Below, in pieces: positions 29,518 to 50,301 of a DNA stretch of 64,000 nucleotides (the first letter of the stretch is position 1; every line of letters begins with the position of its first letter). This DNA is from Phlyctochytrium arcticum. Taxonomy: Eukaryota; Chytridiomycota; Chytridiomycetes; Chytridiales; Chytridiaceae. The stretch covers positions 38,969-102,968 of the forward strand of contig JAHLKI010000050.1 in NCBI GenBank assembly GCA_025602905.1, written 5' to 3'. A program made the position numbers and the translations under genes. Under the pieces are notes generated by a model that was given only the letters and a program-made list of their open reading frames with translations, was not told the DNA's origin and searched no databases.

Positions 29518-29590
29518 TGCCCCCCCCTACAGATAGAAAGGCGGGAAGAATACGACACGCCAAAGCAAAGGAATACTAAAGGAGAATATG

Positions 29591-29815
29591 TCACGCAGAG
29601 GTCGGTTCCGGGTCTTCTGTCTTCGGCCGATATACCCAGGGGACTTGACCCCGGAGGAGTCGCTGTAACTCACCATCGGCAAGATTGGCACGACGGAGCT
29701 GATTGACGTGATATTGTGCCTTGACGGGTTTGCCGGAAAGGTCTTGAAGTACGTAAGAGTCAGGGAAAGTGCCGGAACCGGTGACGACGAGAGGGCCATA
29801 GCGCTTGACTTGAAA
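29591..29815 (-). pseudogene. Ty3/gypsy integrase C-terminus, truncated
   Basis: The minus-strand frame encodes FQVKRYGPLVVTGSGTF, then YVLQDLSGKPVKAQYHVNQLRR, the C-terminal SH3-like fold typical of gypsy integrases with H-x2-QLR, then a stop at 29591. Everything upstream of it (rest of pol, gag, other LTR) is missing because the sequence breaks off into telomeric repeats at 29816. Confidence 0.85.
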
Positions 29816-29827
29816 TTTAGGGTTAGG
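29816..29827. repeat. Interstitial telomeric repeat at left edge of the inverted repeat
   Basis: TTTAGGGTTAGG joins the broken gypsy integrase to the 3' end of LINE-A. The G-rich strand runs rightward, as at a right chromosome end whose interior is on the left. Confidence 0.85.
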
Positions 29828-30954
29828 AATAACGGTTCTTATTAGGCTGGAGGCAATGTAGATACATCAGGTACTATCTAAATGACTAAAGTAATCAAGC
29901 TACATAGAGAAATGTCCAAAAAAAAGTGAAAACAAGTAAAAATGGTCGAAAAAGTAGCATAAATACGCCGTGAAACACGCCAAAGCATGGCCAGGATATG
30001 TCCAGTAACTCCAAAGAATAGTGTGGGAACTTGCAAATTCTCATGGAATGGGCAATTTTTGGGAGGAAACTTGAAATTTGAGAGAAAAGTTGAAATGGTG
30101 ATAAAGGAAGTGAGGACCAGAGTTGTTAGGAGAGTTAACAGGCGTGCGCAGAGTAGTGCTGAGTTGAAATCAAGGGGCAGCAGGCTTGCTTTCTGAAAAA
30201 ACTTTGTGGTAAGGTGGGAAAATGTGGAAAAAATGTCAACTTCATGCCTTGGGCATGATGAGAGAGCTTGAAAATGGTGTGTGCGGGGATTGCCATAGTC
30301 TACAAATGGTGTTACGGGAAGCTGTGCCGAGTTTGAGGTCATTTGAGTGATTTTTGATGGAGTTGGAAAAAATGAGGTATTGATAGTGTTTTCCCATATT
30401 TTGCAGAAGTCATATTAGAATGAACAAATACGGCAGGAGGATGATGAGATTTCGCCCACAGTTGCCGGCATGGGTGGTGTATGGGGTGGTGGGGTCATAC
30501 TGGCTGGATGGGCGCATTTCAGGGAGCGCAGTATGAGGGAAGAGGTGTTTTTTGTGGATGTCTGGTCTTGAAGAGCTGAAGGCAGGGAGAGATGATGGGC
30601 CTCACTAGTACATGTAGTAGTCGGAGCCAGGGCGGCTGTTGTTCATTGAGAGCCCAGATCGACTTAGAGACAGGAGACCACAGCAGGAGGAGAGAAGCGT
30701 GGGAAAAAAACGAAACTGGGTGATGTCGAGTCAACAACCGGCCAGAGACGGTCGACGCACATGCCCCATGGGCTGGCAAGCGGGGACGTGGATGAGTTGA
30801 CTTAAGAGCATACCGCATTAGCACCAAAAGTGAGGCCAGGAGGGGAAATCGGGTGTTTTGCCGAAATAGTAGATTGCAAGACTTGAGGTATTGAATTCCA
30901 GTCAAAATGAGGCAAACTGATACTAGGGTATTCCATTTGGGTACCATTTCGAGG

Positions 30955-30971
30955 CTGGGACGAAGTCCCAG
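30955..30971 (-). other. 3'-region stem-loop of LINE-A, left copy
   Basis: Sense strand CTGGGACTTCGTCCCAG, a 7-bp stem with a 3-nt loop; mirror of 48314-48330. Confidence 0.7.
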
Positions 30972-32992
30972 AACGAGAAATGCATTTTGGAATTTGATGG
31001 GTTTTATTGTTGGTGGGTGGAGATGAATGCCAAGAGGATAAAGAGATTTTTGATGGGGGGGTAGTTGGAGACACAAGAGTAGGCAGGGTCTTGTTGGACA
31101 CAGTGTTCTAGTGTTAGGTGGTGTTGTTGGCCATCTTGTGGATGTTTTTTGTGAGGATGTCTATGAGGCAGGTGTGCTGAGGGTGGTACATGGTGTAAAT
31201 TGGCCTTGGGAACTCGGGGTGGTGGGAGTGGGACCATAGACACAGTTTTTCCAATGAGGTGGTAGAGTAGGTGACCAGAGGCGCCCAGTATGTTCCATAT
31301 GGATCATGGAAAGTTGAGTTCCAGAGTGTGGGAGAAAAGTCGCGATTTTTCAGACAGAAACTCTTGCTACTAGAATAAGACACTACCAAAGTAGCATCAA
31401 GAGCACCGTAGCGTGTGGGGGGATGATTGGCCCTTAGCGCCCGACTCCGTAGATCCATAAATGGACAAGATGGCATGAGAAATACCGCCAAACAGCACAA
31501 ACCCGGCCCTGGCAAGGAAAGTGATAATGGGCAGTGGGTTCTGGCACAGGGGGTGGTAGGGGGTACATAGACGGTGGTTTGGGGCCAGTTGTAGGTCATC
31601 CAGGTCGAGACTCAGGGGACAGGTGGCCAGGGATAAAAATTCCAAAAATTTCGGGCTGTCCTCCAGACTAGGTAAACTTGATGAGGACTGAAAGGGACAT
31701 GCTGAAAGTGGTACCAGAGCTGGAACCGGGTACGGGGCGAGGGCGGGTATAGTCAAAAGTCTGTTGTCTTGATGCTCCTGCCTGATTCCAGGTGGTATGC
31801 ATGGGGCTGGGTTGACATGGAAAAAGTTGATGAAAAAGGCTTGAGAGGGTGGCATATGCCGTATATGCGGATGGGGAAGGTATAGACGGTTCTTTAGGTG
31901 ACGTGCAAGCGTGTCCAAGTGCAAAGCTGTGGGTAAGGTGTCCAATCACAGGAAATACTAAAAATTCCCGCCATCCTCCAGACTAGGTAAAGTTCCTGTT
32001 GAGGTGTGATAAAGGGCCCATGATTGCACAGAAGTTGCAGGTGGGTATGGTGGGACATTTGTTGCTGTTGATTGGCGGTTTGCATGCCCCGTTTTTGATT
32101 TGGGGGTTGGTGCGGGTGGTGTTGAGGGTGGGTAGATGATAATGATGAAAACCACTGGACAGGGTGCCATATGTCACAGTGTTTGATAGAGGGGGTGTTG
32201 AAGGTGGTGTGGGTGAGATTTGGGTCCAATTGGAGCAAAATAAGTGGTAAAAAGTGCTGGAGATTGCGAAAGTCATAAATGCTCGGTTTTTGAGAAATAT
32301 TTCTAAGTCCCAATACCCAGAAGCGTGATTGGCATGTACTTCATGGCAATGGGGTCCCATAAGCCCAATTCTTCAGAGATACTGGAGAGCACCATTTCCG
32401 ACTATAGGGTGGAGCTTGGGAGTGTTGTTATAGGGTAATTCTCGAGGTTGTCATAGGTGCTGCTGTCTTGATAAACAAAGCTGCCAAATTTGAGACATGT
32501 GCATTCCAAAATTGCAAATTTTCAACATGAGCCTAGCCGTTCTGGGAGTTGAAGTGATGGATGTAGGGCATTTTGGAGGTCATACGTTTGCTCCTTGAGG
32601 TGGGGTTTGGTTGGATATTAACAAACTTTACCCAAGGGAAGCCGTTTTATCGGCGATCAGTGCAAACTAGTGGTACAGGCACTCCCCTGATTCAAATGGA
32701 GCATGAGTTGCAGAAACCTGACTTTGAAGGGTCGAGAAAAGATAATTTGATGGTGTGGGGGTGGTGGGAGGAAAAAGGCAATCATCAAATTTGGGTACCA
32801 AATGCCAATAATGGGAGTGAGATTGTGAATGATTGTAGCAAGGAGTTGATAAGGGAGAGTCCAGAGCAGTAAGTAGCTGAAGACTAGCAGTTTGATGGAT
32901 TGTTGGTGAGAGGAAGTTGTGGTGTTCTTGGAGGTGAGGTGATGCCAATTGTAATTGGGATAGTCTGAAGTTGATTGAAGCGGAGATCTGGA

Positions 32993-35900
32993 TTACATAA
33001 TCACTCCGATGGCCGCTGGAAAGTGAAAGGCGGTATTGGGGGGAGAAGCGGGTGACAGGGCAGATGAAAAGGGGGCCGCCGAAGGGATCACACGACCTGC
33101 CGGTGGGCGTAGTGCTTCTTGTTCCAAAGGGTCACCCCATTCCTCGTCCATCAACTGTCGGTATACAATTTGAAGCAAGACCGCAAATAAATATCCGTCG
33201 GCATGGTTTACCACGCAATCCAATGCACTGTACAGTTCCGTATCCAGTTTCTTGTCCAAGAGCCGTTGTCGATCCTTTAATAACCATTCCGAAATCCGCG
33301 GCCATTCTGCATGAGTCTCAAAGAACGGGAGCGCACATTCAATCATACAGCGGCGATTCACCCAACGGCGGCAGATATCACACTTCTTCCTTGACATAAG
33401 GACGTTTTCCCGCCACTTGATGGCCCATGGTCGGAGGACTGGAGGTTGCAGATAGAAGACGGAGTCAACATAACTCTGGGGGCGCCGGTACAGAATGTAG
33501 TTTGCCAGTGGGGAGCCTGCCGGTCCTGAATCAAAACGTCGGTACAGTAACTGGTCCAAATTTGATTTTCGAACATAGGACCGCCAGCTAATTGGATTTT
33601 CTTCTGGTGGTGAGGCCGCAACAACAGCACGCCAAGCGATCACGTCAGTAGGTGGTAGCAAACATCGAGGAAGAACTGCATCGATAGATAGTAATGGCGT
33701 GACGGGGGCCGCAATGGATGGCAAAGAGAACAAAGGATTGGATTGTGGCATCTTTTCCAAATGCAAAAAGTAGGAGCCCACCATATCAACAGCCCGATGG
33801 CTCCACTGTCCTAGCGCACTCATGCTCTCATGTAACTGTTGCGGTGCGAGTCGGCCAAATATCCAATCGAGGGCCTCGCAATGAAGCTTCTCTAATCCCG
33901 TACGCAACGGCAATCGACGGGGATCAGCACCAGACCATATCCAGAAGGGAGGAAGACCGAAGTCTGTATGTGACCGAACGAAAGTTTTGTACAGGGTAAG
34001 TCGCACCACCACTGGCCAGAGATTTCCGCTAATCATCAGAGCTTTAAGCATTCGAGTAGCCTTGCCAAGACGGATATCCAGATGATCTTTCCACATAATT
34101 CCTTTTGCCCCCGTCGGAAATCCAAGGTATTTGTAATTTTCAACCTTGGGTACAGACTTGCTGGCTAATAGAAGAGTAGGCGGGCCGGAAGCATCCCACT
34201 TGTCCTTCCAAACCACGCCGCACTTGCTATTATTGAACTCCATCCCGTTTTCCGCTGCCCATATGGTACAAACATCCAGAAAGAGTTGTGCTTCCCTGAT
34301 ATCAATTGGCTGGAGTTTGATATCATCGGCATAGGCAAGAGATGGGGGGAATTTGCGGATGGTCAAATCTGTCATAGTATCCATTGTCAATAGCAAAGTG
34401 TCAATGAAAACATTGAATAACAGTGGTGAGACGAGTGACCCTTGAAACAGTCCACATTCACGCGAAACAGATGGCGTGAGTTCACCGTTGACAACGAAAC
34501 GAGAGGATGGCTCGCGGCACATTAAACTATAGACAAGTGCAACCGCCCACACTGATGCTCCTGCTTCTTTCACCCGCTCAAGTAAACGAGAATGCGGGAC
34601 TCTATCATACGCGGCCTTTAGGTCCAAGTAAATAGAGATGTCAGAGCCCAGACGAATACTTTCACTCCCAATGAGCGCTTGGGTAATAGCCGAATGCCGT
34701 GAGCGAAAGCCGCCCTGTCCAGGATGGACTTTGGCCCAATCTTCACCATGCCACACAGTCAATACTCTTTTCTCGAAAAGCCGACGCAGGACACAAGTAT
34801 TGGCAATAGGCCGAGTGTCGGCAGGTCCAACGAGATCACCATCCACTTTGGCTGTCAAGGTCACATTTGCAGAGTTCCAACATTTGGGCGTCGTTCCCAA
34901 GCAGACACAAAGATAAAAAAACAAACTGATGTGACTGGCAAAGACTTCACTTGCACACAGTGCCTTAAGCAGAATGGGAGGAACATTGTCCGGGCCAGAG
35001 CTTTTCGTGACAGGATACCCTCTTATCACCTTTTCTATACCTGCCCAATCTCCCACCACGGCAGCCATGGCACGCGCTACAACATCGCCAGCCGCAGGTA
35101 TCTCAAAAGCAAGAGGTGGTGGGTTGGCTACCGGATTCTTGAAGATTTCAGCAAAATGCTCCACGACAGAATCCACTGCCGATACAGTACTCCCTTCAAC
35201 ACCAATGACCGGCTGTTTTCCCCGCAAGCTTCGTTTGAAAAGACGAGTGGCTGAACTTGCATCTTGAGCTCCACGCAATGCATCCTGAAGGTGGTCCGGC
35301 CGCATTTGCGCTACTGATGGGACATATGCTCCCAGCACCTGTTCACCAACAAAAAATATCCAATCCGATAGTAACTGTCCTATAAAATCAATCATCGCTT
35401 CACGATCCGCAAGTGACAGCGACATCCCTTCATTCTTGAGGAACTGAAGAAGAGTATTGATATCCCAACTATCGCGGTCATATTCGGAGCAAATTCGTTC
35501 CTTGACTAGTGACTCCGAGAGGTACTTTACAAATAGCCGGCGCGTGGGATTAGATCGGACATCAGGAGGAGGTGATGAGACCAATGGCCGAGAAGGTGGT
35601 GTCCAGTCAATCTTCATAATGCCATGATCGCTACTAATTGGGGCCGTTTCATAGGACCATGACAAGGTAGTGGATGAGGTCAGGATATGGTCTAGTCTTG
35701 AGAGGCCAGAGACTGCCGGAAGAAGGTTCAAATGGTGTCGAGAAGCAGTAGTCCAGAATGAGTGAGCACGTGGGGCGGGATCATTTAAGCGCCGTGGGTT
35801 ATCCCCAGTGCGGCTACCCAAACGGACATTGACATCCCCAATAATAGCAACCGGCTTAGAGGTCATTTTTGGATTCAGAATTTCTTGGACAACATTCTCT

Positions 35901-36244
35901 TCGAGAGATGGCGGCAGATAGACAAAGAGGAAATGTTGATTATGAATAGCCAGGGAGAGGGAGTACTCAGTTTTGGCCATATAGTTGATGAAGGGATGGA
36001 GACGAGGCGGGACTAGCGCCAGAAGGCCTCCGTTTTGATGGCCGTGAGTTCTGGGTTGAGATGGATATGAGGACCAGAACTGGGAGTATGGGTGAGTTTT
36101 TATATAATTCCAGGATGTAAACCAGGTTTCTGAAATGATGATGAGGTCGTAGACGTTGTTGTTGATGAGATCGATAAGAATATCCAGCTTCAAGGGTGTT
36201 AATCCTCGCGCGTTGATGTATCCGATGATGAGTTTACTATTCAT
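32993..36244 (-). CDS. LINE-A ORF2 (APE endonuclease, RT), left copy
   Basis: Same 1083-residue protein as the right copy at 43041-46292, with Lys instead of Arg in the LE(K/R)MPQ segment (33753). Open throughout. Confidence 0.95.
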   Translation of the reverse strand: MNSKLIIGYINARGLTPLKLDILIDLINNNVYDLIIISETWFTSWNYIKTHPYSQFWSSYPSQPRTHGHQNGGLLALVPPRLHPFINYMAKTEYSLSLAIHNQHFLFVYLPPSLEENVVQEILNPKMTSKPVAIIGDVNVRLGSRTGDNPRRLNDPAPRAHSFWTTASRHHLNLLPAVSGLSRLDHILTSSTTLSWSYETAPISSDHGIMKIDWTPPSRPLVSSPPPDVRSNPTRRLFVKYLSESLVKERICSEYDRDSWDINTLLQFLKNEGMSLSLADREAMIDFIGQLLSDWIFFVGEQVLGAYVPSVAQMRPDHLQDALRGAQDASSATRLFKRSLRGKQPVIGVEGSTVSAVDSVVEHFAEIFKNPVANPPPLAFEIPAAGDVVARAMAAVVGDWAGIEKVIRGYPVTKSSGPDNVPPILLKALCASEVFASHISLFFYLCVCLGTTPKCWNSANVTLTAKVDGDLVGPADTRPIANTCVLRRLFEKRVLTVWHGEDWAKVHPGQGGFRSRHSAITQALIGSESIRLGSDISIYLDLKAAYDRVPHSRLLERVKEAGASVWAVALVYSLMCREPSSRFVVNGELTPSVSRECGLFQGSLVSPLLFNVFIDTLLLTMDTMTDLTIRKFPPSLAYADDIKLQPIDIREAQLFLDVCTIWAAENGMEFNNSKCGVVWKDKWDASGPPTLLLASKSVPKVENYKYLGFPTGAKGIMWKDHLDIRLGKATRMLKALMISGNLWPVVVRLTLYKTFVRSHTDFGLPPFWIWSGADPRRLPLRTGLEKLHCEALDWIFGRLAPQQLHESMSALGQWSHRAVDMVGSYFLHLEKMPQSNPLFSLPSIAAPVTPLLSIDAVLPRCLLPPTDVIAWRAVVAASPPEENPISWRSYVRKSNLDQLLYRRFDSGPAGSPLANYILYRRPQSYVDSVFYLQPPVLRPWAIKWRENVLMSRKKCDICRRWVNRRCMIECALPFFETHAEWPRISEWLLKDRQRLLDKKLDTELYSALDCVVNHADGYLFAVLLQIVYRQLMDEEWGDPLEQEALRPPAGRVIPSAAPFSSALSPASPPNTAFHFPAAIGVIM

Positions 36245-36866
36245 GTTCAGATGGAGCAGGGGACCCAATACGGACAATGCCATCATCGGGGCCAGTCTGC
36301 GCGGCATCAGATGAGGAAATGGCCGGTGTCGAACTCATAGCAGTATCGGCAGTAAGGGTGGGATGTCTGGCCTTGATAGTGCAAACCCATGCACTAAACA
36401 GCTCCTTTACACCTTCATGCCGCGTCGTTTCTACAACGCCTTCTACACGCCGCAAGTTCAATGCCAATACTTCTGGGGCACGGGGCGCGTTTGGATTATT
36501 GGTGGGATTGCGAGGAACGGCCGGGTTGAATAAGACATCAATATCCAAATTGCAGCGGCGCGCCTGTGCCCGGAATGACTGGTAGTAGTCTTCGTCAAGG
36601 GTGATCTCAAGAGTGGTCCCAATCCAAGAGAAGTTGCGGATCTTGGTCAGCATAAAATGCAACTTGTAGAAGACACTTTTCAACTCTTTGAATGACATCC
36701 TGGGCAGACTAGTCATGTAGACAATACGGAGACCGAGGTCAACCGCAGCCTTTTCAACGGGGGTGCGAATGTCTGGCCTTTCCTCAATAACAGGGCGGCG
36801 GCTATCTACACGGCGGACATTGCGAGCCTTCTGAATAAGCCTGAGACCTTCGCGGATATCCTTCAT
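36237..36866 (-). CDS. LINE-A ORF1, left copy
   Basis: Mirror of 42419-43048; 209 residues from MKDIREGLRLIQKARNV. See the right copy. Confidence 0.75.
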   Translation of the reverse strand: MKDIREGLRLIQKARNVRRVDSRRPVIEERPDIRTPVEKAAVDLGLRIVYMTSLPRMSFKELKSVFYKLHFMLTKIRNFSWIGTTLEITLDEDYYQSFRAQARRCNLDIDVLFNPAVPRNPTNNPNAPRAPEVLALNLRRVEGVVETTRHEGVKELFSAWVCTIKARHPTLTADTAMSSTPAISSSDAAQTGPDDGIVRIGSPAPSEHE

Positions 36867-36905
36867 CTTTTCTTTATTATCATCATCTTGTGGAAACCGC
36901 TGCAC

Positions 36906-36920
36906 AGGGTTAGGGTTAGG
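36906..36920. repeat. Telomeric repeat between LINE-A and LINE-B, left arm
   Basis: AGGGTTAGGGTTAGG separates the 5' end of LINE-A from the 3' end of LINE-B. Confidence 0.93.
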
Positions 36921-38671
36921 ATGTGAGGAGAGTGTTATTTGAGAGCATGCACATATACAGAACATATCTATCTATAAGACTAACTAGAAAAAACGAGAAA
37001 AAGGAGCAAAAAATGATAAAACTACGAAAAAAGGCGATTTCAGACTGGAGCCCGGCAGTGGGGAGGAACGGTGAGTGAGGGGGAGTAATCCAGAAAGATG
37101 CGCACGGCAAAGAGCGTTAAGATGTCCTAAGACACCTTATGTGCAAGGGTGGGTGAATGGGTCGAGAAAACGCGAAAAATGGTGGTAAGAAGGGACTTGG
37201 GGTTTGGAGGGCATTTCAGCCTGAGAGACGCGTGGCCCGTGCTTGGGAAGATGTGGTGGATGAGGTAGAGCAGCGGGGCAGAGGTGGAGGCCGAGGTGGT
37301 GGTGAGGGAGGTGATGTAGCGGTGATGGCAACAATTCCAGAGCTGGGACGAAGTCCCAGAGTAGAAGACGGTGGTGGTAACAATTCCAGAGCTGGGACGA
37401 AGTCCCAGAGTAAAAAAGGATGGTCGGGGAGAGTGTTGCGTGGTCTGGGGGAGGTCGAAGGCCGGGTGGTATTAATGATGGGGATGGCCAGGACGTGGGG
37501 TAGCGGGGGTTGCACACAGCGGTGATTTTGGTGAAGGGCCCGATGGAATTAGTGATGGGGATGGCCAGGAGGTAATGGGGATGAGAAATGCGTGGGAGGG
37601 GTGAATGCAGGCTGCGCGGTGCCGATGGTAACGGCATACGCCGGGAGATGATGTGGGGAGAGTTGTCGGTGGGAGAGAAGGCGTGGAGGGTTGCTGTGTC
37701 CTTATCCAATGCCGGTGATGGGAAGGCCGATGTATTTGGTGGAGGGGAAGGTCGCGGCCGTGTGGTTGTTGTGATGGCGAGGGTGGTGGGGATATGGGTG
37801 AAAGCGCGGGGAGGTCGTGGCGGTGATGCAGCGGGCGAGGGGACGCGCGCGGGCTTCAGTGGAGGCATCATGCGGTGGTGGGAAGGAGGGAAGGACGGAG
37901 GGCCTTTCTTGAGGAGCTGGGGCCGTGACCGTGGTGGGGATGGGTGGTTGGAGTTGGTAGGATGCGCGACGAGACCCGTGAGGGCGTCGGTAGCGGTAGC
38001 GGTGATGTTGGGTGGGATGGGAAGGTTGTTGTGGTGGTAGCGGCAAGTGGGGGAGCGGTGGGCGTGATGGGGGCGCGGTCCGGGGTGAGGAGGATGCGGT
38101 GTGTGCGGGGGTATTATCAGAAGCCGTGGGGAGTGCTGGGGTATCTTGGGAAGAGCCTGTGTTGCTGGGGGTATCGGGTATGTTGCGGGGAGGGGAATCA
38201 TCTACACTACTTACTATTCTACTACTAGGGGGAGGGGGGGATGGCGGTGCTTGGTCTTGGATGTCGAGGTTGGCAGAGGTCCAGGATTGCATGGTCGTGT
38301 AGAGGAGAGTGAAGTTGTCGTAGTCTTTGTGGTTGAGCGTCTCGTCGAGGATGTTGTAGTGGGGGGCGTGGTAGCCGCGTTCGCGGAGCTTCTTGCGTTG
38401 GGCGAGCGTGTTGGTGAGGTGGGTGATGATGGCGGGGGTGGTGATGTCGCGGAAAGGGTTGCAATCGACGATATGCCCGCGGGTAAGGCGTTGGCGGCAG
38501 ATGGGACATTGGAGATGGGGGTTGAGGTTGTTGAGGCGCCAGCGAACAATCTGGCGGGCGAGGGAAGGAGGGCGTTGGAATATGCCAGTATCGGCGCCGA
38601 CACCGTGGCCAGTCCTACAAGTGTTGCTGATGGAGTTGGCGAGGATAGACGGGTTGGCGAGAAACCCATTG
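36921..38671 (-). mobile_element. LINE-B, left copy, 5'-truncated
   Basis: Only the 3' 1.75 kb is present: C-terminal protein coding (38671-37702 on minus, with CPICRQRLTRGHIVDC) and a C-rich 3' region. It stops at 38671, where it meets the oppositely directed LINE-B. Confidence 0.9.
37343..37408 (-). other. Paired 3' stem-loops of LINE-B, left copy
   Basis: Two copies of sense CTGGGACTTCGTCCCAG at 37392-37408 and 37343-37359, mirror of 41877-41942. Confidence 0.75.
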
Positions 38672-41583
38672 TGTGTTCCACCGTTGATACCCTTGGTCTA
38701 GCTCTTCAAGATACCCTCCTCTCGGTTGCTCAACATACCCTCGGCTACTACAGCGTCTCCCGCGCCAAGTCCCGCCCCCAATCAACCGAAGTCATCCCCA
38801 TCTCCACCACCGACCTCCATGACCCCCTTACCACTACCGCCGCCATCCGTGCATTCAAACGCTCCCGCCGTGGCCTTCAACCCACACTCACCAGCGGTGA
38901 TGCCAACCTCACGCCCAATGACGCTACCACCGCCCGCTTTTCCACCACCTTCTCCACCTGCTCATCAACGCCTCCAGACGACCCAGGCGGCTCCCTCACC
39001 TACGAACTATCCCATGCCGAACGCCGCGCCTTCTCCCTCACCTCCATCTGTGATGCCATCCGTCGATACCCCAAGTGCCGTAGCGGAGGGCCCGACGGCC
39101 TCCATCAAACTCTCCTCACCACCCTTACCTACTCCACCACCTTCGAACAAGACATTACTGCCATCTTCCGTCACTTCCTCGCTGTGGGGGCAACCCCGCA
39201 ATGTTGGAATACCAGTAAACTTGTACTCATCCCCAAAACCACCACCGACTCTCGTATTTCTGCTTGTCGCCCCATCTCCCTCACTCAAATTCTCCGCCGT
39301 ATCTTTGAAGGACGTCTCCATCGCGCCTGGCGTGGCCGCCCGTGGGCCAAAGTTCATCCTTCTCAAGGCGGATTCCAGCGACGTCAAGGATCGACCCACC
39401 TAGCTCTCGCGTCCGACGCCTCGTGTAGACTAGGTGCCCAGCTTCAGGTCTTTCTCGACGTGGTGGGTGCGTACGATCATGTCCCACATCGACACCTGAT
39501 GCAAGTTCTGGCTGGGCGTGGCGCCCCTCGCCGCGACTTAAGTCTAGTGTTCGCGCTGTTCTGCCGCTTCATGTCCACCGTAGCGGTAGTCAATGGAACC
39601 CGCTGCGACCCCATCCCCATCATCCGCGGACTCTTCCAAGGATCGGTTCTCTCCCCTCTCCTCTTCAACCTGTTTATAGACCCGCTCGCCGTTATCCTTG
39701 CGCCCACCAACGACTTTCCCAACAACAACCTCCCCAACGCCCTTTTCTTTGCCGACGACATCAAACTCCAGGCCGCTACCCTCCCCACCATCCGCACCTC
39801 ACTCGCCCTCTGTGAGGCATGGGCCGATGCGAATTTTCTGAAGTTTGGACTGGCTAAATGTGGCATTATTGGCGCTCCACCCGATGCCGTTCTCCCCCTC
39901 CAAGATGGCTTCCTCCCCCACGTCTCCGAATACAAGTACCTAGGATACCCCCATACCCGTCGCGGCATTAACTGGCCCAAGTTCATTACCACCACCACCA
40001 CCAAAGCCGACCGCCTTCTCTCTTATACCATGATGCGTGGCCAGGCCTGGACCCCCGGCACCAAACTCACCATCTACCGCACATTCATCCAATCGCTCTG
40101 TACTTATGGTATGGAGGCCTTCGGCCTATGGCTGGATGGTCAACCGCCAGATGTTCAACGATCTCTCCTCACCCTCCTCACCACCAACCACCGCACCGCC
40201 CTGGAATGGATCTTCAACACCTCCTCCGCCACGTCCCTCGCAACAATGGAATCACTAACCTCTCTCACCAACCCCGTCCGCAAGATGACCGAGTTTGCTG
40301 CATCCTTCGCGTTCCGCCTCTCCTCCTACAACAACACCTTCTCCGCCACCTCCCCCTGGGCCGTAGTGAATGCCCGCTTTCCCGAGTGTGGCCCATGGTC
40401 CCTCGGTGAAATCATCCCTCGGCTCCGTCTCCAAACTCAACCACTCCTCGCCGCCTACAACAACATTGTCAATGCATACCCCCCCAGCTTCACCGGCCCC
40501 CGTCTTACTTGGAAGAAATTCCTTCGCCGTGACCGCATCCTCCAACACCGCGCGACCCTTTCCTCCAGCACCCACCCCCTCGACAACCGATCTATACCCG
40601 CCCGCTCCGTTCGCAATGGGTTTCTCGCCAACCCGTCTATCCTCGCCAACTCCATCAGCAACACTTGTAGGACTGGCCACGGTGTCGGCGCCGATACTGG
40701 CATATTCCAACGCCCTCCTTCCCTCGCCCGCCAGATTGTTCGCTGGCGCCTCAACAACCTCAACCCCCATCTCCAATGTCCCATCTGCCGCCAACGCCTT
40801 ACCCGCGGGCATATCGTCGATTGCAACCCTTTCCGCGACATCACCACCCCCGCCATCATCACCCACCTCACCAACACGCTCGCCCAACGCAAGAAGCTCC
40901 GCGAACGCGGCTACCACGCCCCCCACTACAACATCCTCGACGAGACGCTCAACCACAAAGACTACGACAACTTCACTCTCCTCTACACGACCATGCAATC
41001 CTGGACCTCTGCCAACCTCGACATCCAAGACCAAGCACCGCCATCCCCCCCTCCCCCTAGTAGTAGAATAGTAAGTAGTGTAGATGATTCCCCTCCCCGC
41101 AACATACCCGATACCCCCAGCAACACAGGCTCTTCCCAAGATACCCCAGCACTCCCCACGGCTTCTGATAATACCCCCGCACACACCGCATCCTCCTCAC
41201 CCCGGACCGCGCCCCCATCACGCCCACCGCTCCCCCACTTGCCGCTACCACCACAACAACCTTCCCATCCCACCCAACATCACCGCTACCGCTACCGACG
41301 CCCTCACGGGTCTCGTCGCGCATCCTACCAACTCCAACCACCCATCCCCACCACGGTCACGGCCCCAGCTCCTCAAGAAAGGCCCTCCGTCCTTCCCTCC
41401 TTCCCACCACCGCATGATGCCTCCACTGAAGCCCGCGCGCGTCCCCTCGCCCGCTGCATCACCGCCACGACCTCCCCGCGCTTTCACCCATATCCCCACC
41501 ACCCTCGCCATCACAACAACCACACGGCCGCGACCTTCCCCTCCACCAAATACATCGGCCTTCCCATCACCGGCATTGGATAA
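38672..41583 (+). pseudogene. LINE-B ORF2 fragment (RT and C-terminal zinc knuckle)
   Basis: The genuine LINE-B frame runs from the junction at 38672 to a TAA at 41581. RT motifs are RSGGPDGLHQTLL, PQCWNTSKLVLIPK, CRPISLTQILRRIFE, GGFQRRQGSTHLAL, FLDVVGAYDHVPHR, LFQGSVLSPLLFNLFIDP and the catalytic FFADDIKLQ. A C-x2-C-x7-H-x3-C knuckle (CPICRQRLTRGHIVDC) follows, then a Pro/Ser/His-rich tail of about 190 residues. The open frame happens to continue upstream to 38101 through the left arm, but those 190 codons are antisense LINE-B and not part of the protein. No endonuclease domain is present, so the copy cannot move alone. Confidence 0.9.
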
Positions 41584-41876
41584 GGACACAGCAACCCTCC
41601 ACGCCTTCTCTCCCACCGACAACTCTCCCCACATCATCTCCCGGCGTATGCCGTTACCATCGGCACCGCGCAGCCTGCATTCACCCCTCCCACGCATTTC
41701 TCATCCCCATTACCTCCTGGCCATCCCCATCACTAATTCCATCGGGCCCTTCACCAAAATCACCGCTGTGTGCAACCCCCGCTACCCCACGTCCTGGCCA
41801 TCCCCATCATTAATACCACCCGGCCTTCGACCTCCCCCAGACCACGCAACACTCTCCCCGACCATCCTTTTTTACT

Positions 41877-41942
41877 CTGGGACTTCGTCCCAGCTCTGGA
41901 ATTGTTACCACCACCGTCTTCTACTCTGGGACTTCGTCCCAG
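41877..41942 (+). other. Paired 3' stem-loops of LINE-B, right copy
   Basis: CTGGGACTTCGTCCCAG occurs at 41877-41893 and 41926-41942, inside a 49-bp unit repeated twice; each is followed by CTCTGGAATTGTT. Confidence 0.8.
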
Positions 41943-42364
41943 CTCTGGAATTGTTGCCATCACCGCTACATCACCTCCCTCACCACCACCTCGGCCTCCA
42001 CCTCTGCCCCGCTGCTCTACCTCATCCACCACATCTTCCCAAGCACGGGCCACGCGTCTCTCAGGCTGAAATGCCCTCCAAACCCCAAGTCCCTTCTTAC
42101 CACCATTTTTCGCGTTTTCTCGACCCATTCACCCACCCTTGCACATAAGGTGTCTTAGGACATCTTAACGCTCTTTGCCGTGCGCATCTTTCTGGATTAC
42201 TCCCCCTCACTCACCGTTCCTCCCCACTGCCGGGCTCCAGTCTGAAATCGCCTTTTTTCGTAGTTTTATCATTTTTTGCTCCTTTTTCTCGTTTTTTCTA
42301 GTTAGTCTTATAGATAGATATGTTCTGTATATGTGCATGCTCTCAAATAACACTCTCCTCACAT

Positions 42365-42379
42365 CCTAACCCTAACCCT
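42365..42379. repeat. Telomeric repeat between LINE-B and LINE-A, right arm
   Basis: CCTAACCCTAACCCT lies between the 3' end of LINE-B and the 5' end of LINE-A. Confidence 0.93.
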
Positions 42380-42418
42380 GTGCAGCGGTTTCCACAAGAT
42401 GATGATAATAAAGAAAAG

Positions 42419-43048
42419 ATGAAGGATATCCGCGAAGGTCTCAGGCTTATTCAGAAGGCTCGCAATGTCCGCCGTGTAGATAGCCGCCGCCCTGTTATTG
42501 AGGAAAGGCCAGACATTCGCACCCCCGTTGAAAAGGCTGCGGTTGACCTCGGTCTCCGTATTGTCTACATGACTAGTCTGCCCAGGATGTCATTCAAAGA
42601 GTTGAAAAGTGTCTTCTACAAGTTGCATTTTATGCTGACCAAGATCCGCAACTTCTCTTGGATTGGGACCACTCTTGAGATCACCCTTGACGAAGACTAC
42701 TACCAGTCATTCCGGGCACAGGCGCGCCGCTGCAATTTGGATATTGATGTCTTATTCAACCCGGCCGTTCCTCGCAATCCCACCAATAATCCAAACGCGC
42801 CCCGTGCCCCAGAAGTATTGGCATTGAACTTGCGGCGTGTAGAAGGCGTTGTAGAAACGACGCGGCATGAAGGTGTAAAGGAGCTGTTTAGTGCATGGGT
42901 TTGCACTATCAAGGCCAGACATCCCACCCTTACTGCCGATACTGCTATGAGTTCGACACCGGCCATTTCCTCATCTGATGCCGCGCAGACTGGCCCCGAT
43001 GATGGCATTGTCCGTATTGGGTCCCCTGCTCCATCTGAACATGAATAG
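42419..43048 (+). CDS. LINE-A ORF1
   Basis: 209 residues from MKDIREGLRLIQKARNVRR. The frame stays open upstream through the telomeric repeat (coding HPNPNP), so 42419 is the first Met inside the element. The protein is basic at the N-terminus and has a possible RNA-binding fold around LRIVYMTSLPRMSFKELKSV and a Ser/Asp-rich tail. No CCHC knuckle is seen. The stop TAG lies inside ATGAATAG, the start of ORF2. The element may be 5'-truncated and ORF1 therefore incomplete. Confidence 0.75.
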   Translation: MKDIREGLRLIQKARNVRRVDSRRPVIEERPDIRTPVEKAAVDLGLRIVYMTSLPRMSFKELKSVFYKLHFMLTKIRNFSWIGTTLEITLDEDYYQSFRAQARRCNLDIDVLFNPAVPRNPTNNPNAPRAPEVLALNLRRVEGVVETTRHEGVKELFSAWVCTIKARHPTLTADTAMSSTPAISSSDAAQTGPDDGIVRIGSPAPSEHE

Positions 43049-46000
43049 TAAACTCATCATCGGATACATCAACGCGCGAGGATTAACACCCTTGAAGCTG
43101 GATATTCTTATCGATCTCATCAACAACAACGTCTACGACCTCATCATCATTTCAGAAACCTGGTTTACATCCTGGAATTATATAAAAACTCACCCATACT
43201 CCCAGTTCTGGTCCTCATATCCATCTCAACCCAGAACTCACGGCCATCAAAACGGAGGCCTTCTGGCGCTAGTCCCGCCTCGTCTCCATCCCTTCATCAA
43301 CTATATGGCCAAAACTGAGTACTCCCTCTCCCTGGCTATTCATAATCAACATTTCCTCTTTGTCTATCTGCCGCCATCTCTCGAAGAGAATGTTGTCCAA
43401 GAAATTCTGAATCCAAAAATGACCTCTAAGCCGGTTGCTATTATTGGGGATGTCAATGTCCGTTTGGGTAGCCGCACTGGGGATAACCCACGGCGCTTAA
43501 ATGATCCCGCCCCACGTGCTCACTCATTCTGGACTACTGCTTCTCGACACCATTTGAACCTTCTTCCGGCAGTCTCTGGCCTCTCAAGACTAGACCATAT
43601 CCTGACCTCATCCACTACCTTGTCATGGTCCTATGAAACGGCCCCAATTAGTAGCGATCATGGCATTATGAAGATTGACTGGACACCACCTTCTCGGCCA
43701 TTGGTCTCATCACCTCCTCCTGATGTCCGATCTAATCCCACGCGCCGGCTATTTGTAAAGTACCTCTCGGAGTCACTAGTCAAGGAACGAATTTGCTCCG
43801 AATATGACCGCGATAGTTGGGATATCAATACTCTTCTTCAGTTCCTCAAGAATGAAGGGATGTCGCTGTCACTTGCGGATCGTGAAGCGATGATTGATTT
43901 TATAGGACAGTTACTATCGGATTGGATATTTTTTGTTGGTGAACAGGTGCTGGGAGCATATGTCCCATCAGTAGCGCAAATGCGGCCGGACCACCTTCAG
44001 GATGCATTGCGTGGAGCTCAAGATGCAAGTTCAGCCACTCGTCTTTTCAAACGAAGCTTGCGGGGAAAACAGCCGGTCATTGGTGTTGAAGGGAGTACTG
44101 TATCGGCAGTGGATTCTGTCGTGGAGCATTTTGCTGAAATCTTCAAGAATCCGGTAGCCAACCCACCACCTCTTGCTTTTGAGATACCTGCGGCTGGCGA
44201 TGTTGTAGCGCGTGCCATGGCTGCCGTGGTGGGAGATTGGGCAGGTATAGAAAAGGTGATAAGAGGGTATCCTGTCACGAAAAGCTCTGGCCCGGACAAT
44301 GTTCCTCCCATTCTGCTTAAGGCACTGTGTGCAAGTGAAGTCTTTGCCAGTCACATCAGTTTGTTTTTTTATCTTTGTGTCTGCTTGGGAACGACGCCCA
44401 AATGTTGGAACTCTGCAAATGTGACCTTGACAGCCAAAGTGGATGGTGATCTCGTTGGACCTGCCGACACTCGGCCTATTGCCAATACTTGTGTCCTGCG
44501 TCGGCTTTTCGAGAAAAGAGTATTGACTGTGTGGCATGGTGAAGATTGGGCCAAAGTCCATCCTGGACAGGGCGGCTTTCGCTCACGGCATTCGGCTATT
44601 ACCCAAGCGCTCATTGGGAGTGAAAGTATTCGTCTGGGCTCTGACATCTCTATTTACTTGGACCTAAAGGCCGCGTATGATAGAGTCCCGCATTCTCGTT
44701 TACTTGAGCGGGTGAAAGAAGCAGGAGCATCAGTGTGGGCGGTTGCACTTGTCTATAGTTTAATGTGCCGCGAGCCATCCTCTCGTTTCGTTGTCAACGG
44801 TGAACTCACGCCATCTGTTTCGCGTGAATGTGGACTGTTTCAAGGGTCACTCGTCTCACCACTGTTATTCAATGTTTTCATTGACACTTTGCTATTGACA
44901 ATGGATACTATGACAGATTTGACCATCCGCAAATTCCCCCCATCTCTTGCCTATGCCGATGATATCAAACTCCAGCCAATTGATATCAGGGAAGCACAAC
45001 TCTTTCTGGATGTTTGTACCATATGGGCAGCGGAAAACGGGATGGAGTTCAATAATAGCAAGTGCGGCGTGGTTTGGAAGGACAAGTGGGATGCTTCCGG
45101 CCCGCCTACTCTTCTATTAGCCAGCAAGTCTGTACCCAAGGTTGAAAATTACAAATACCTTGGATTTCCGACGGGGGCAAAAGGAATTATGTGGAAAGAT
45201 CATCTGGATATCCGTCTTGGCAAGGCTACTCGAATGCTTAAAGCTCTGATGATTAGCGGAAATCTCTGGCCAGTGGTGGTGCGACTTACCCTGTACAAAA
45301 CTTTCGTTCGGTCACATACAGACTTCGGTCTTCCTCCCTTCTGGATATGGTCTGGTGCTGATCCCCGTCGATTGCCGTTGCGTACGGGATTAGAGAAGCT
45401 TCATTGCGAGGCCCTCGATTGGATATTTGGCCGACTCGCACCGCAACAGTTACATGAGAGCATGAGTGCGCTAGGACAGTGGAGCCATCGGGCTGTTGAT
45501 ATGGTGGGCTCCTACTTTTTGCATTTGGAAAGGATGCCACAATCCAATCCTTTGTTCTCTTTGCCATCCATTGCGGCCCCCGTCACGCCATTACTATCTA
45601 TCGATGCAGTTCTTCCTCGATGTTTGCTACCACCTACTGACGTGATCGCTTGGCGTGCTGTTGTTGCGGCCTCACCACCAGAAGAAAATCCAATTAGCTG
45701 GCGGTCCTATGTTCGAAAATCAAATTTGGACCAGTTACTGTACCGACGTTTTGATTCAGGACCGGCAGGCTCCCCACTGGCAAACTACATTCTGTACCGG
45801 CGCCCCCAGAGTTATGTTGACTCCGTCTTCTATCTGCAACCTCCAGTCCTCCGACCATGGGCCATCAAGTGGCGGGAAAACGTCCTTATGTCAAGGAAGA
45901 AGTGTGATATCTGCCGCCGTTGGGTGAATCGCCGCTGTATGATTGAATGTGCGCTCCCGTTCTTTGAGACTCATGCAGAATGGCCGCGGATTTCGGAATG

Positions 46001-46292
46001 GTTATTAAAGGATCGACAACGGCTCTTGGACAAGAAACTGGATACGGAACTGTACAGTGCATTGGATTGCGTGGTAAACCATGCCGACGGATATTTATTT
46101 GCGGTCTTGCTTCAAATTGTATACCGACAGTTGATGGACGAGGAATGGGGTGACCCTTTGGAACAAGAAGCACTACGCCCACCGGCAGGTCGTGTGATCC
46201 CTTCGGCGGCCCCCTTTTCATCTGCCCTGTCACCCGCTTCTCCCCCCAATACCGCCTTTCACTTTCCAGCGGCCATCGGAGTGATTATGTAA
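43041..46292 (+). CDS. LINE-A ORF2: APE endonuclease and reverse transcriptase
   Basis: 1083 residues from MNSKLIIGYINARGLTPLKL. Residues 1-230 are an exonuclease-endonuclease-phosphatase domain: IGYINARGL, IIISETWF, AIIGDVNVRLG, SRLDHILT and SSDHGI. The RT domain has KSSGPDNVPPILLKALC, PKCWNSANVTLTAKV, GQGGFRSRHSAITQALIG, YLDLKAAYDRVPHSRL, LFQGSLVSPLLFNVFID and the catalytic LAYADDIKLQ. A C-terminal Cys motif CDICRRWVNRRCMIEC (C-x2-C-x7-C-x3-C) follows. The ATG overlaps the ORF1 stop by eight bases. No internal stop; probably active. The RT resembles that of LINE-B closely enough to place both in one clade. Confidence 0.95.
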   Translation: MNSKLIIGYINARGLTPLKLDILIDLINNNVYDLIIISETWFTSWNYIKTHPYSQFWSSYPSQPRTHGHQNGGLLALVPPRLHPFINYMAKTEYSLSLAIHNQHFLFVYLPPSLEENVVQEILNPKMTSKPVAIIGDVNVRLGSRTGDNPRRLNDPAPRAHSFWTTASRHHLNLLPAVSGLSRLDHILTSSTTLSWSYETAPISSDHGIMKIDWTPPSRPLVSSPPPDVRSNPTRRLFVKYLSESLVKERICSEYDRDSWDINTLLQFLKNEGMSLSLADREAMIDFIGQLLSDWIFFVGEQVLGAYVPSVAQMRPDHLQDALRGAQDASSATRLFKRSLRGKQPVIGVEGSTVSAVDSVVEHFAEIFKNPVANPPPLAFEIPAAGDVVARAMAAVVGDWAGIEKVIRGYPVTKSSGPDNVPPILLKALCASEVFASHISLFFYLCVCLGTTPKCWNSANVTLTAKVDGDLVGPADTRPIANTCVLRRLFEKRVLTVWHGEDWAKVHPGQGGFRSRHSAITQALIGSESIRLGSDISIYLDLKAAYDRVPHSRLLERVKEAGASVWAVALVYSLMCREPSSRFVVNGELTPSVSRECGLFQGSLVSPLLFNVFIDTLLLTMDTMTDLTIRKFPPSLAYADDIKLQPIDIREAQLFLDVCTIWAAENGMEFNNSKCGVVWKDKWDASGPPTLLLASKSVPKVENYKYLGFPTGAKGIMWKDHLDIRLGKATRMLKALMISGNLWPVVVRLTLYKTFVRSHTDFGLPPFWIWSGADPRRLPLRTGLEKLHCEALDWIFGRLAPQQLHESMSALGQWSHRAVDMVGSYFLHLERMPQSNPLFSLPSIAAPVTPLLSIDAVLPRCLLPPTDVIAWRAVVAASPPEENPISWRSYVRKSNLDQLLYRRFDSGPAGSPLANYILYRRPQSYVDSVFYLQPPVLRPWAIKWRENVLMSRKKCDICRRWVNRRCMIECALPFFETHAEWPRISEWLLKDRQRLLDKKLDTELYSALDCVVNHADGYLFAVLLQIVYRQLMDEEWGDPLEQEALRPPAGRVIPSAAPFSSALSPASPPNTAFHFPAAIGVIM

Positions 46293-49200
46293 TCCAGATC
46301 TCCGCTTCAATCAACTTCAGACTATCCCAATTACAATTGGCATCACCTCACCTCCAAGAACACCACAACTTCCTCTCACCAACAATCCATCAAACTGCTA
46401 GTCTTCAGCTACTTACTGCTCTGGACTCTCCCTTATCAACTCCTTGCTACAATCATTCACAATCTCACTCCCATTATTGGCATTTGGTACCCAAATTTGA
46501 TGATTGCCTTTTTCCTCCCACCACCCCCACACCATCAAATTATCTTTTCTCGACCCTTCAAAGTCAGGTTTCTGCAACTCATGCTCCATTTGAATCAGGG
46601 GAGTGCCTGTACCACTAGTTTGCACTGATCGCCGATAAAACGGCTTCCCTTGGGTAAAGTTTGTTAATATCCAACCAAACCCCACCTCAAGGAGCAAACG
46701 TATGACCTCCAAAATGCCCTACATCCATCACTTCAACTCCCAGAACGGCTAGGCTCATGTTGAAAATTTGCAATTTTGGAATGCACATGTCTCAAATTTG
46801 GCAGCTTTGTTTATCAAGACAGCAGCACCTATGACAACCTCGAGAATTACCCTATAACAACACTCCCAAGCTCCACCCTATAGTCGGAAATGGTGCTCTC
46901 CAGTATCTCTGAAGAATTGGGCTTATGGGACCCCATTGCCATGAAGTACATGCCAATCACGCTTCTGGGTATTGGGACTTAGAAATATTTCTCAAAAACC
47001 GAGCATTTATGACTTTCGCAATCTCCAGCACTTTTTACCACTTATTTTGCTCCAATTGGACCCAAATCTCACCCACACCACCTTCAACACCCCCTCTATC
47101 AAACACTGTGACATATGGCACCCTGTCCAGTGGTTTTCATCATTATCATCTACCCACCCTCAACACCACCCGCACCAACCCCCAAATCAAAAACGGGGCA
47201 TGCAAACCGCCAATCAACAGCAACAAATGTCCCACCATACCCACCTGCAACTTCTGTGCAATCATGGGCCCTTTATCACACCTCAACAGGAACTTTACCT
47301 AGTCTGGAGGATGGCGGGAATTTTTAGTATTTCCTGTGATTGGACACCTTACCCACAGCTTTGCACTTGGACACGCTTGCACGTCACCTAAAGAACCGTC
47401 TATACCTTCCCCATCCGTATATACGGCATATGCCACCCTCTCAAGCCTTTTTCATCAACTTTTTCCATGTCAACCCAGCCCCATGCATACCACCTGGAAT
47501 CAGGCAGGAGCATCAAGACAACAGACTTTTGACTATACCCGCCCTCGCCCCGTACCCGGTTCCAGCTCTGGTACCACTTTCAGCATGTCCCTTTCAGTCC
47601 TCATCAAGTTTACCTAGTCTGGAGGACAGCCCGAAATTTTTGGAATTTTTATCCCTGGCCACCTGTCCCCTGAGTCTCGACCTGGATGACCTACAACTGG
47701 CCCCAAACCACCGTCTATGTACCCCCTACCACCCCCTGTGCCAGAACCCACTGCCCATTATCACTTTCCTTGCCAGGGCCGGGTTTGTGCTGTTTGGCGG
47801 TATTTCTCATGCCATCTTGTCCATTTATGGATCTACGGAGTCGGGCGCTAAGGGCCAATCATCCCCCCACACGCTACGGTGCTCTTGATGCTACTTTGGT
47901 AGTGTCTTATTCTAGTAGCAAGAGTTTCTGTCTGAAAAATCGCGACTTTTCTCCCACACTCTGGAACTCAACTTTCCATGATCCATATGGAACATACTGG
48001 GCGCCTCTGGTCACCTACTCTACCACCTCATTGGAAAAACTGTGTCTATGGTCCCACTCCCACCACCCCGAGTTCCCAAGGCCAATTTACACCATGTACC
48101 ACCCTCAGCACACCTGCCTCATAGACATCCTCACAAAAAACATCCACAAGATGGCCAACAACACCACCTAACACTAGAACACTGTGTCCAACAAGACCCT
48201 GCCTACTCTTGTGTCTCCAACTACCCCCCCATCAAAAATCTCTTTATCCTCTTGGCATTCATCTCCACCCACCAACAATAAAACCCATCAAATTCCAAAA
48301 TGCATTTCTCGTTCTGGGACTTCGTCCCAGCCTCGAAATGGTACCCAAATGGAATACCCTAGTATCAGTTTGCCTCATTTTGACTGGAATTCAATACCTC
48401 AAGTCTTGCAATCTACTATTTCGGCAAAACACCCGATTTCCCCTCCTGGCCTCACTTTTGGTGCTAATGCGGTATGCTCTTAAGTCAACTCATCCACGTC
48501 CCCGCTTGCCAGCCCATGGGGCATGTGCGTCGACCGTCTCTGGCCGGTTGTTGACTCGACATCACCCAGTTTCGTTTTTTTCCCACGCTTCTCTCCTCCT
48601 GCTGTGGTCTCCTGTCTCTAAGTCGATCTGGGCTCTCAATGAACAACAGCCGCCCTGGCTCCGACTACTACATGTACTAGTGAGGCCCATCATCTCTCCC
48701 TGCCTTCAGCTCTTCAAGACCAGACATCCACAAAAAACACCTCTTCCCTCATACTGCGCTCCCTGAAATGCGCCCATCCAGCCAGTATGACCCCACCACC
48801 CCATACACCACCCATGCCGGCAACTGTGGGCGAAATCTCATCATCCTCCTGCCGTATTTGTTCATTCTAATATGACTTCTGCAAAATATGGGAAAACACT
48901 ATCAATACCTCATTTTTTCCAACTCCATCAAAAATCACTCAAATGACCTCAAACTCGGCACAGCTTCCCGTAACACCATTTGTAGACTATGGCAATCCCC
49001 GCACACACCATTTTCAAGCTCTCTCATCATGCCCAAGGCATGAAGTTGACATTTTTTCCACATTTTCCCACCTTACCACAAAGTTTTTTCAGAAAGCAAG
49101 CCTGCTGCCCCTTGATTTCAACTCAGCACTACTCTGCGCACGCCGGTTAACTCTCCTAACAACTCTGGTCCTCACTTCCTTTATCACCATTTCAACTTTT

Positions 49201-49459
49201 CTCTCAAATTTCAAGTTTCCTCCCAAAAATTGCCCATTCCATGAGAATTTGCAAGTTCCCACACTATTCTTTGGAGTTACTGGACATATCCTGGCCATGC
49301 TTTGGCGTGTTTCACGGCGTATTTATGCTACTTTTTCGACCATTTTTACTTGTTTTCACTTTTTTTTGGACATTTCTCTATGTAGCTTGATTACTTTAGT
49401 CATTTAGATAGTACCTGATGTATCTACATTGCCTCCAGCCTAATAAGAACCGTTATTCC
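46293..49459 (+). other. Long C-rich 3' region of LINE-A
   Basis: 3.2 kb without conserved coding, strongly C-rich and G-poor on the sense strand. It contains an 18-bp direct repeat TTTACCTAGTCTGGAGGA at 47294-47311 and 47609-47626, and the stem-loop at 48314. Overlapping open frames arise from the base bias and are not supported as genes. Confidence 0.7.
48314..48330 (+). other. 3' stem-loop of LINE-A shared with LINE-B
   Basis: CTGGGACTTCGTCCCAG followed by CCTCGAAATGGTACC, similar to the LINE-B stem-loop and its 3' flank. Confidence 0.75.
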
Positions 49460-49472
49460 TAAACCCTAACCC
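49458..49472. repeat. Interstitial telomeric repeat at right edge of the inverted repeat
   Basis: CCTAAACCCTAACCC joins the LINE-A tail to the truncated copia gag at 49473. The repeat phase differs from the left edge, so the two telomere junctions are independent. Confidence 0.88.
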
Positions 49473-50272
49473 GTGGACGTGGTCGAGGAGGTTACCGCGG
49501 TAGAAGAGGTCGCCGTGGTGGGACAAGCTACAGGCAATCAAGAGGTTGCTTTATCTGCTCTAAAGAAGATCACTATGCGCGGGATTGTCCGGAATTCAAG
49601 GCATTTCGAGAAGAGAAGGGTAAATCGAACTACAATGATGCGGAGGCAAATCATACCGAAGTGGAATCACATTTGACGCTTGCCACTCACCGGAAATCCT
49701 CTTATTCGATTGCAGTAGATTCAGCTTCAACATCCCATATTATGAAGGACAAATTTCTCATTGAGGATTTCAAGACGTTGCAGAACCCAATTCCAATCAC
49801 ATCAGGAAGAAATGGCAGCGAACCAGCAATGGCAGTCGGGATTGGATAGTTGACTGTTTATAATCCTGAGGGTGAACAGAAAAAAGTTACATTTGAGAAT
49901 GTACATTATGCGCCGGATTACCCGCAAAACATTGTCTCAACACAGCAACTTCCAAAAGGAGTTGCTTCAACTTTTGCCGGAAACAATTCTCCCCAATCTG
50001 GATTGTTTTTGACGAAAACAAAAGAAAAGCTGTTGGATGTAAAGGTTCATCAACATCTCCCGTTCCTTGTCGGATTTACGAAATTTGAGCCAGAGGCATA
50101 CGCGTCGGAAATCACAGAGGGAAGAATTAACAACGCCATGCAAAAGTCAACCGCCAAGGACTCGTCGGGAAACGAGAAGACCGAAATGTCGGAAAACTAC
50201 AAACATCCCATCTGCGATTTGGACACCCGGGTAGCAAAGCACTTGAAAAAGCGAATAAACTTTACGGCCTAG
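49473..50272 (+). pseudogene. Copia gag/protease remnant
   Basis: Starts in an RGR-rich gag tail followed by zinc knuckle CFICSKEDHYARDC, then the protease with VDSASTSHIM (DSA instead of DSG). A TAG interrupts at 49847-49849 and the frame ends at 50272 before the rest of pol, which is in another frame. The protein cannot be made intact. Confidence 0.85.
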
Positions 50273-50301
50273 GATTAGTAGTCAGGACAATTACTCAAGA
50301 T

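Follow-up and report, generated by a model that had tools for sequence, protein, structure and literature searches.

Head-to-head arrays of LINEs with telomere-motif tails in the genome assembly of the chytrid Phlyctochytrium arcticum

Phlyctochytrium arcticum is a fungus placed in the Chytridiales (Chytridiomycota) in the NCBI taxonomy, and its assembly comprises 91 contigs and 31.48 Mb. The stretch of DNA analysed here, called the window, covers 64,000 nucleotides (nt) of contig C50, from position 38969 to the contig end at 102968. It contains a large palindrome composed of long interspersed nuclear elements (LINEs) whose 3' ends carry short telomere motifs. No publication on the telomeres of this species is among the literature matches listed. 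The inverted arms of the palindrome (29817-38671 and 40614-49469 of the window) align over 8856 columns with 99.955% identity, in agreement with the near-identical arms described in the original prediction, an earlier reading of the same DNA. They differ by three mismatches (33753/45532, 31867/47418 and 30140/49145), all inside the element termed LINE-A, and by one gap, where the outer tail of the right arm has an additional A (49461). From edge to centre, each arm consists of a tail, LINE-A, a second tail and LINE-B, with the 3' ends of both elements facing outward, an order that had been described correctly. Because the arms have private mismatches and unlike tails, they are not one copy printed twice.

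The centre of the palindrome is not the separate 1942-bp spacer that had been proposed. Positions 38672-40613 encode reverse transcriptase (RVT_1) that continues in frame into the LINE-B of the right arm; only the left LINE-B is shortened, to 38671, and the right LINE-B runs on through this region. At the centre, therefore, two truncated LINE-B copies of unequal length (3704 and 1762 bp, each counted with 11 nt of tail) meet by their 5' ends. LINE-A is cut at the same base in both arms (about 36905) and is followed there by an identical 15-nt LINE-B tail. In a genome search in which all 35 candidates were scored, and whose counts are lower bounds, the complete junction of truncated LINE-A, tail and LINE-B was found only in the two C50 arms. 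Recent copying between ends had been suggested from the near-identity of the arms. Likeness by itself would not prove it, since the LINE-A of the window is matched at 99.6-100% identity by five stretches in other places, but the common junction does show that this stretch was copied between the arms. Fuller copies of both elements lie on C27, each with a longer or additional first open reading frame (ORF).

Table 1. Features of the C50 palindrome and its flanks, in window coordinates, and contig ends at which the arrays have their 5' ends outward.
Feature	Position	Strand	Remarks
Gypsy-like fragment, cut at LINE tail	29156-29816	-	gypsy label read from translation
Telomere-motif tail of left LINE-A, 11 nt	29817-29827	-	CCTAACCCTAA on - strand
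Left LINE-A, 5'-truncated	29828-36905	-	Pfam Exo_endo_phos and RVT_1; fuller copy C27:24663-33345
Left LINE-A ORF2	32993-36334	-	endonuclease and reverse transcriptase
Left LINE-A ORF1, C-terminal part	36237-36905	-	
Telomere-motif tail of left LINE-B, 15 nt	36906-36920	-	adjoins truncated LINE-A
Left LINE-B, short	36921-38671	-	5'-truncated at joint
Head-to-head joint	38671/38672	.	about 1 nt microhomology (G)
Right LINE-B, long, 5'-truncated	38672-42364	+	RVT_1; 5' part present in fuller C27:16996-24655
Telomere-motif tail of right LINE-B, 15 nt	42365-42379	+	
Right LINE-A, 5'-truncated	42380-49457	+	ORF2 42951-46292
Telomere-motif tail of right LINE-A	49458-49472	+	14 nt plus extra A
Copia element lacking its 5' part, broken in gag at LINE tail	49473-52794	+	RVT_2, rve, Chromo
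Array contig ends, 5' outward	C3, C46, C57 right; C28, C47, C65, C66 left		

The outer flanks are unrelated, as had been stated, with a gypsy-like fragment on the left and a cut copia element on the right. Copies of the gypsy fragment on C18, C81 and C56 are 99-100% identical to the left flank, and their match ends at 29818, two bases into the left LINE-A tail. The fragment adjoins a long terminal repeat (LTR) copia element, which is different from the copia element of the right flank. The latter is present as a single copy, the only match at 100%, and has six relatives at 69-71%, four of which align from 49474 and two from 49496. At both outer edges, LINE-A seems to have sealed a broken element. 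The idea that the entire palindrome was inserted at one site is rejected, the flanks being two different broken elements.

In a Pfam scan of the LINE families A, B, D and A2, RVT_1 was found in all four; Exo_endo_phos scored above the cut-off in A and D and below it in A2 (23.5 versus 24.5 bits), and Exo_endo_phos_2 scored above it in B. The endonuclease is of the apurinic type and is located before the reverse transcriptase. A restriction-like endonuclease after the reverse transcriptase, a feature of the fungal telomeric LINEs MoTeR and FoTeR, was not found in the Pfam scans, and no separate domain search was run for it. Among the best 8000 candidates scored, at least 43 protein relatives of LINE-A have E ≤ 0.001, and the best has 28% identity over 32% of the query. 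A fifth family, present on C3, C6, C46 and C57, is A2-like, with 57-59% protein identity to LINE-A.

Telomeric repeats had been reported in both arms. The motif is indeed present at the LINE 3' ends, but it measures just 11-15 nt and forms no array. The sequence TTAGGGTTAGGG is absent from the 64-kb window, and no telomere array is found at the C50 junctions. The chance expectation of an 11-mer in 64 kb is about 0.03 (by arithmetic), and the C50 tails lie exactly at the LINE 3' ends; they are not due to chance. Exact 3'-end keys for families A-D, applied to 44 of the 71 loci and to the window, gave 38 places read, equal to 25 distinct 3' junctions, and a separate scan of all loci returned the same 25. 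The motif CCTAACCCTAACCCT, cut to 9-15 nt, is present at 24 of them and is followed by non-telomeric DNA; the 25th is the junction of the right palindrome edge, where the motif contains an additional A. A third telomere unit was found at none of the 25 junctions. Diverged copies and the fifth family lie outside this count. The diverged LINE-A relatives on C63 and C41 carry a 9-nt form of the motif at the 3' end, and the fifth family has a degenerate motif stretch there (longest about 48 nt, about three units in a row).

The exact 12-mer (TTAGGG)2 has 19 occurrences in the assembly as a whole, compared with 21 for the reversed control; the LINE arrays of C3, C6, C27, C46 and C75 account for at least 8 of these. 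The 24-mer (TTAGGG)4 is absent from the whole assembly; with three mismatches allowed, the count is 0 versus 2 for the control. Long telomere tracts between the LINEs were found neither at the junctions nor in the assembly searches. The proposal that the LINEs are inserted in telomeric DNA is not supported: they do not lie in telomere tracts, and the motif acts as a short element tail. A tail borne by the LINE RNA would account for the junctions better than insertion into a telomere. Telomerase_RBD matches lie at C19:314085-314640, with none in 14 control genomes. This putative telomerase RNA-binding domain is in three pieces, one with two internal stops, as an intron would give. Loss of telomerase appears to be ruled out by this match.

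The C50 joint is not unique. The 160 bp spanning 38671/38672 match in full at C50, C27:36974-37133 and C8:1100-1259, with the joint at the same base in each and with different flanks in C50, C27 and the known side of C8. On C27, the long LINE-B comes after a LINE-A, and the junction between them is also present on C46; the short LINE-B is followed by a different LINE, A2. On C8, the inverted short LINE-B occupies the contig start (1-1179), with several small gaps relative to the other copies; this joint may continue into another contig. C17 contains a palindrome of LINE-D with arms at 117210-125583 and 125655-134028 (8374 bp each), a 71-bp spacer, three mismatches between the arms, and LINE-A and LINE-B as flanks. 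A genome search found no second copy of its centre. Nested insertion into one element is ruled out at C17, where the flanking LINE-A and LINE-B have no matching other half on the far side within the 20 kb read. On C75, ACCCTAACCCTAAAA separates two truncated LINE-D copies in head-to-head orientation, which have 2613 bp in common and differ there by two mismatches; a fusion that retained a remnant of telomere would look like this.

The flanks are unlike wherever both are known, at the four loci on C50, C27, C17 and C75, so that each presents the arrangement of a fusion site, two head-to-head arrays with unrelated flanks. Each of the three distinct joints (B/B, D/D and D/D) lies between two copies of a single family, which hints that homology or a common LINE particle matters, three being few; in each, one truncated copy is long and the other short. 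The mismatches between arms tend to lie outward. In C50 they are found at 0.56, 0.77 and 0.96 of arm length from the centre, and the 11 mismatches at four loci have a mean position of 0.73 versus 0.5 for a uniform distribution (p = 0.003, for a test chosen after looking). The short arm of C8 was left out of this test because it meets the contig edge and has several gaps there. The outward position fits copying of the inner part from end to end, or a fold-back with later exchange of the outer parts.

Arrays reach nine contig ends, with 5' ends outward at seven (Table 1); the remaining two, those of C8 and C75, belong to head-to-head joints. Six of the 25 junctions occur on more than one contig; array blocks have therefore been copied between places. 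Head-to-tail LINE units of about 7.0 kb (C3:1722613-1730393 and C6:421031-428812) and about 8.0 kb (C66:5195-21815) were also observed. Together, the repeated units and the junctions common to several contigs suggest amplification and sharing between places.

LINEs at chromosome ends are found in several other eukaryotes. In Drosophila, HeT-A, TART and TAHRE are added to chromosome ends with the 3' end inward, stacked and often truncated. Drosophila is without telomerase, whereas P. arcticum appears to have a telomerase gene, and the Telomerase_RBD match speaks against replacement of telomerase by LINEs. Fungal telomeric LINE arrays are already known. In the available parts of the sources, MoTeR of Magnaporthe/Pyricularia oryzae is described as forming terminal arrays with 5' ends outward, internal telomere motifs and exchange between ends (PMC7367193, PMC8381367), and the P. 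arcticum arrays, which have 5' ends outward at most of the contig ends that they reach, would resemble it in these respects; an internal cluster of MoTeR relics has been read as a possible ancestral chromosome fusion (PMC8381367). MoTeR differs in its restriction-like endonuclease (PMC12857005) and in being set in telomere tracts, whereas P. arcticum has the Exo_endo_phos (apurinic) type of endonuclease, and its elements were not seen in any tract. FoTeR of Fusarium oxysporum is likewise telomeric, with 5' ends outward and mostly truncated copies, as would be the case in P. arcticum; it is unlike in its restriction-like endonuclease, telomere repeats at junctions and, as far as the available text goes, lack of non-telomeric copies (PMC12857005). 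The term “head-to-head” is absent from the main text of PMC7367193 and PMC12857005, and no head-to-head LINE arrays of the P. arcticum kind were seen for fungi in the available portions of the MoTeR and FoTeR literature.

SART and TRAS of Bombyx mori are described as L1-like LINEs with two ORFs and an endonuclease that recognises the telomere motif (PMC4700185, available part). The P. arcticum LINEs share with them the combination of an apurinic-type endonuclease and a LINE reverse transcriptase. SART and TRAS interrupt telomere repeats, whereas in P. arcticum the tail of one truncated element adjoins the 5' end of the next without any array, and none of the junctions read lies in a tract of telomere repeats. 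Zepp of Chlorella and Coccomyxa forms nested LINE clusters at termini and inside chromosomes; the available sections of its description mention neither a telomere-motif tail nor head-to-head joints, unlike in P. arcticum (PMC3446292). In human cells, according to the accessible text of two studies, unequally eroded ends form inverted joints with short microhomology (PMC4864465), and L1 can bridge head to head (PMC7058536). Those cases concern cultured or tumour cells and subtelomeres or single L1 insertions, whereas in P. arcticum joined LINE arrays are present in a reference genome.

The reading we favour, to which we give an even chance, builds on the observed anatomy, tails, orientation, recurrence and unlike flanks: LINEs with telomere-motif tails would have capped broken ends that were later joined head to head. 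Several related P. arcticum LINE families would make RNAs ending in the C-strand telomere motif, with about two units in four families. At chromosome ends that are exposed or broken, this RNA tail would prime on the 3' G-strand, and such priming would add LINEs tail-inward and 5'-outward, often 5'-truncated and stacked. At C50, LINE-A would have capped both an end broken in a gypsy element and an end broken in a copia element. The terminal block of one end, comprising truncated LINE-A, tail and LINE-B, would then have been copied to the other, and the two ends, having lost unequal lengths of LINE-B to erosion, would have joined 5' to 5'. The C50 joint may have arisen once and reached C27 and C8 through exchange in near-identical LINE-B; C17 and C75 would be separate joins of the same kind. 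On this reading, the joints would exist in the organism. Of the earlier idea of two fused LINE-capped ends, the fusion is retained, with 5'-outward arrays at seven contig ends, the head-to-head arrangement and the unlike flanks in its favour; the placement of the LINEs in telomere tracts is not.

Several observations weigh against this reading. No telomere tract was found in the assembly, which means that none of its contigs demonstrably extends to a chromosome end. The start of C8 lies inside the inverted short LINE-B of a joint, and at the left end of C75 the 3' side of the left arm LINE faces the contig edge. Related LINE copies with no head-to-head partner seen also lie inside contigs, on C6 (two places), C4, C12, C41 and C63; stops interrupt several of the C4, C41 and C63 copies. 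For one genome of 31.5 Mb to have undergone four or more recent end joins would be drastic. Reuse of one graph path would likewise place the same joint on several contigs, and outward mismatches also fit consensus blurring near a palindrome centre.

The main rival is a false join in silico, in which separate LINE-capped ends were connected through near-identical LINE-B (and LINE-D), perhaps by reuse of one real or chimeric inverted LINE-B dimer in several contigs. From the unlike flanks it had been argued that the palindrome is no simple fold-back or missed-adapter read artefact. A plain fold-back read is indeed rejected as the whole explanation, the two arms having different flanks, tails and mismatches. 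The flanks do not exclude misassembly, since an assembler could pass from one near-identical LINE copy to another precisely where the copies end. Near-identical copies at many places, array-internal ends of C3, C46 and C57, the missing telomere tract and the presence of the same joint on three contigs all suit a false join. It accords poorly with the existence of three different joints, with the private mismatches and tails that distinguish the arms, and with the unique LINE-A/LINE-B junction in both C50 arms, and on balance we consider it doubtful, though a serious contender. Sister-chromatid fold-back, in which an eroded end fuses with its sister to give identical arms and a loop of unequal erosion, and outer parts are later exchanged with other ends, would explain the outward mismatches and the junction common to both C50 arms. 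A long/short asymmetry of this kind predominates in human sister telomere fusions (PMC4864465, available text). However, the flanks differ at all four loci where both are known, on C17, C27 and C75 directly from the tail of the LINE itself, and no equal-flank case is among the loci seen, which makes this origin quite improbable.

In a further alternative, which is improbable although somewhat less so than fold-back, both sides of a break, or two ends held together, prime LINE RNA from the same particle, and the resulting complementary DNAs (cDNAs) are joined by their 5' ends, the LINE serving as a bridge. Such two-ended capture is consistent with the confinement of all three distinct joints to one family, each with a long and a short truncated copy, their own tails and unlike flanks. 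L1-bridged sister chromatids joined head to head in tumours, as described in the available part of PMC7058536, offer a precedent. It leaves the copied LINE-A/LINE-B part of C50 unexplained and does not explain the repeated joint without later exchange; moreover, same-family joins could be due to chance, as few families are active. Least probable, and in our view very unlikely, is that the arrays are centromere-like clusters internal to chromosomes at which contigs merely break, as with Zepp, which clusters once per Coccomyxa chromosome, probably at the centromere (PMC3446292, accessible part). A broken head-to-head cluster would also give 5' ends outward at contig ends, but the tails carry the telomere motif, about 285 kb separates the two clusters on C6, stacked elements meet with a tail against a truncated 5' end, and the neighbours at C17 are not halves of one split element.

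If capping followed by joining is correct, these loci would be the LINE counterpart of a telomere-telomere fusion site, nearly undamaged and present in several places, in an early-branching fungus that apparently also has a telomerase gene. They would allow the copying, erosion and joining of capped ends to be read from sequence, and would offer a clear test of whether short telomere-motif tails heal breaks through LINEs. A bolder extension, to which we give little credence, is that such LINEs both cap and weld broken ends, two cDNAs being joined 5' to 5'; head-to-head LINE dimers would then be the footprint of a retrotransposon-made route of end-joining and chromosome reshuffling beside telomerase. 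The loci are also a caution that near-identical LINE arrays could fuse contigs in silico.

Other features of the window lie outside the palindrome. Two open frames at 61975-63891 (-), neither with a Pfam match, resemble a Crinkler-like NTPase gene, and the region 54466-60648 (+), with a Pif1 2B domain and long open frames, resembles a decayed Helitron. An open frame at 20386-22275 (-) has three matches among the best 8000 scored, all in P. arcticum: itself and two relatives (42 and 55% identity). The LTR element at 24177-29155 (-), next to the gypsy-like fragment, has 169-bp repeats that are 98.8% alike and a copia-type pol; its gag part matches Retrotrans_gag, with Ty3_capsid below the cut-off. 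The copia polyprotein of the right flank (50131-52794, +) has a chromodomain (PF00385) between an SH3-like domain and the reverse transcriptase; chromodomains are commonly found in gypsy chromoviruses but not usually in copia elements.

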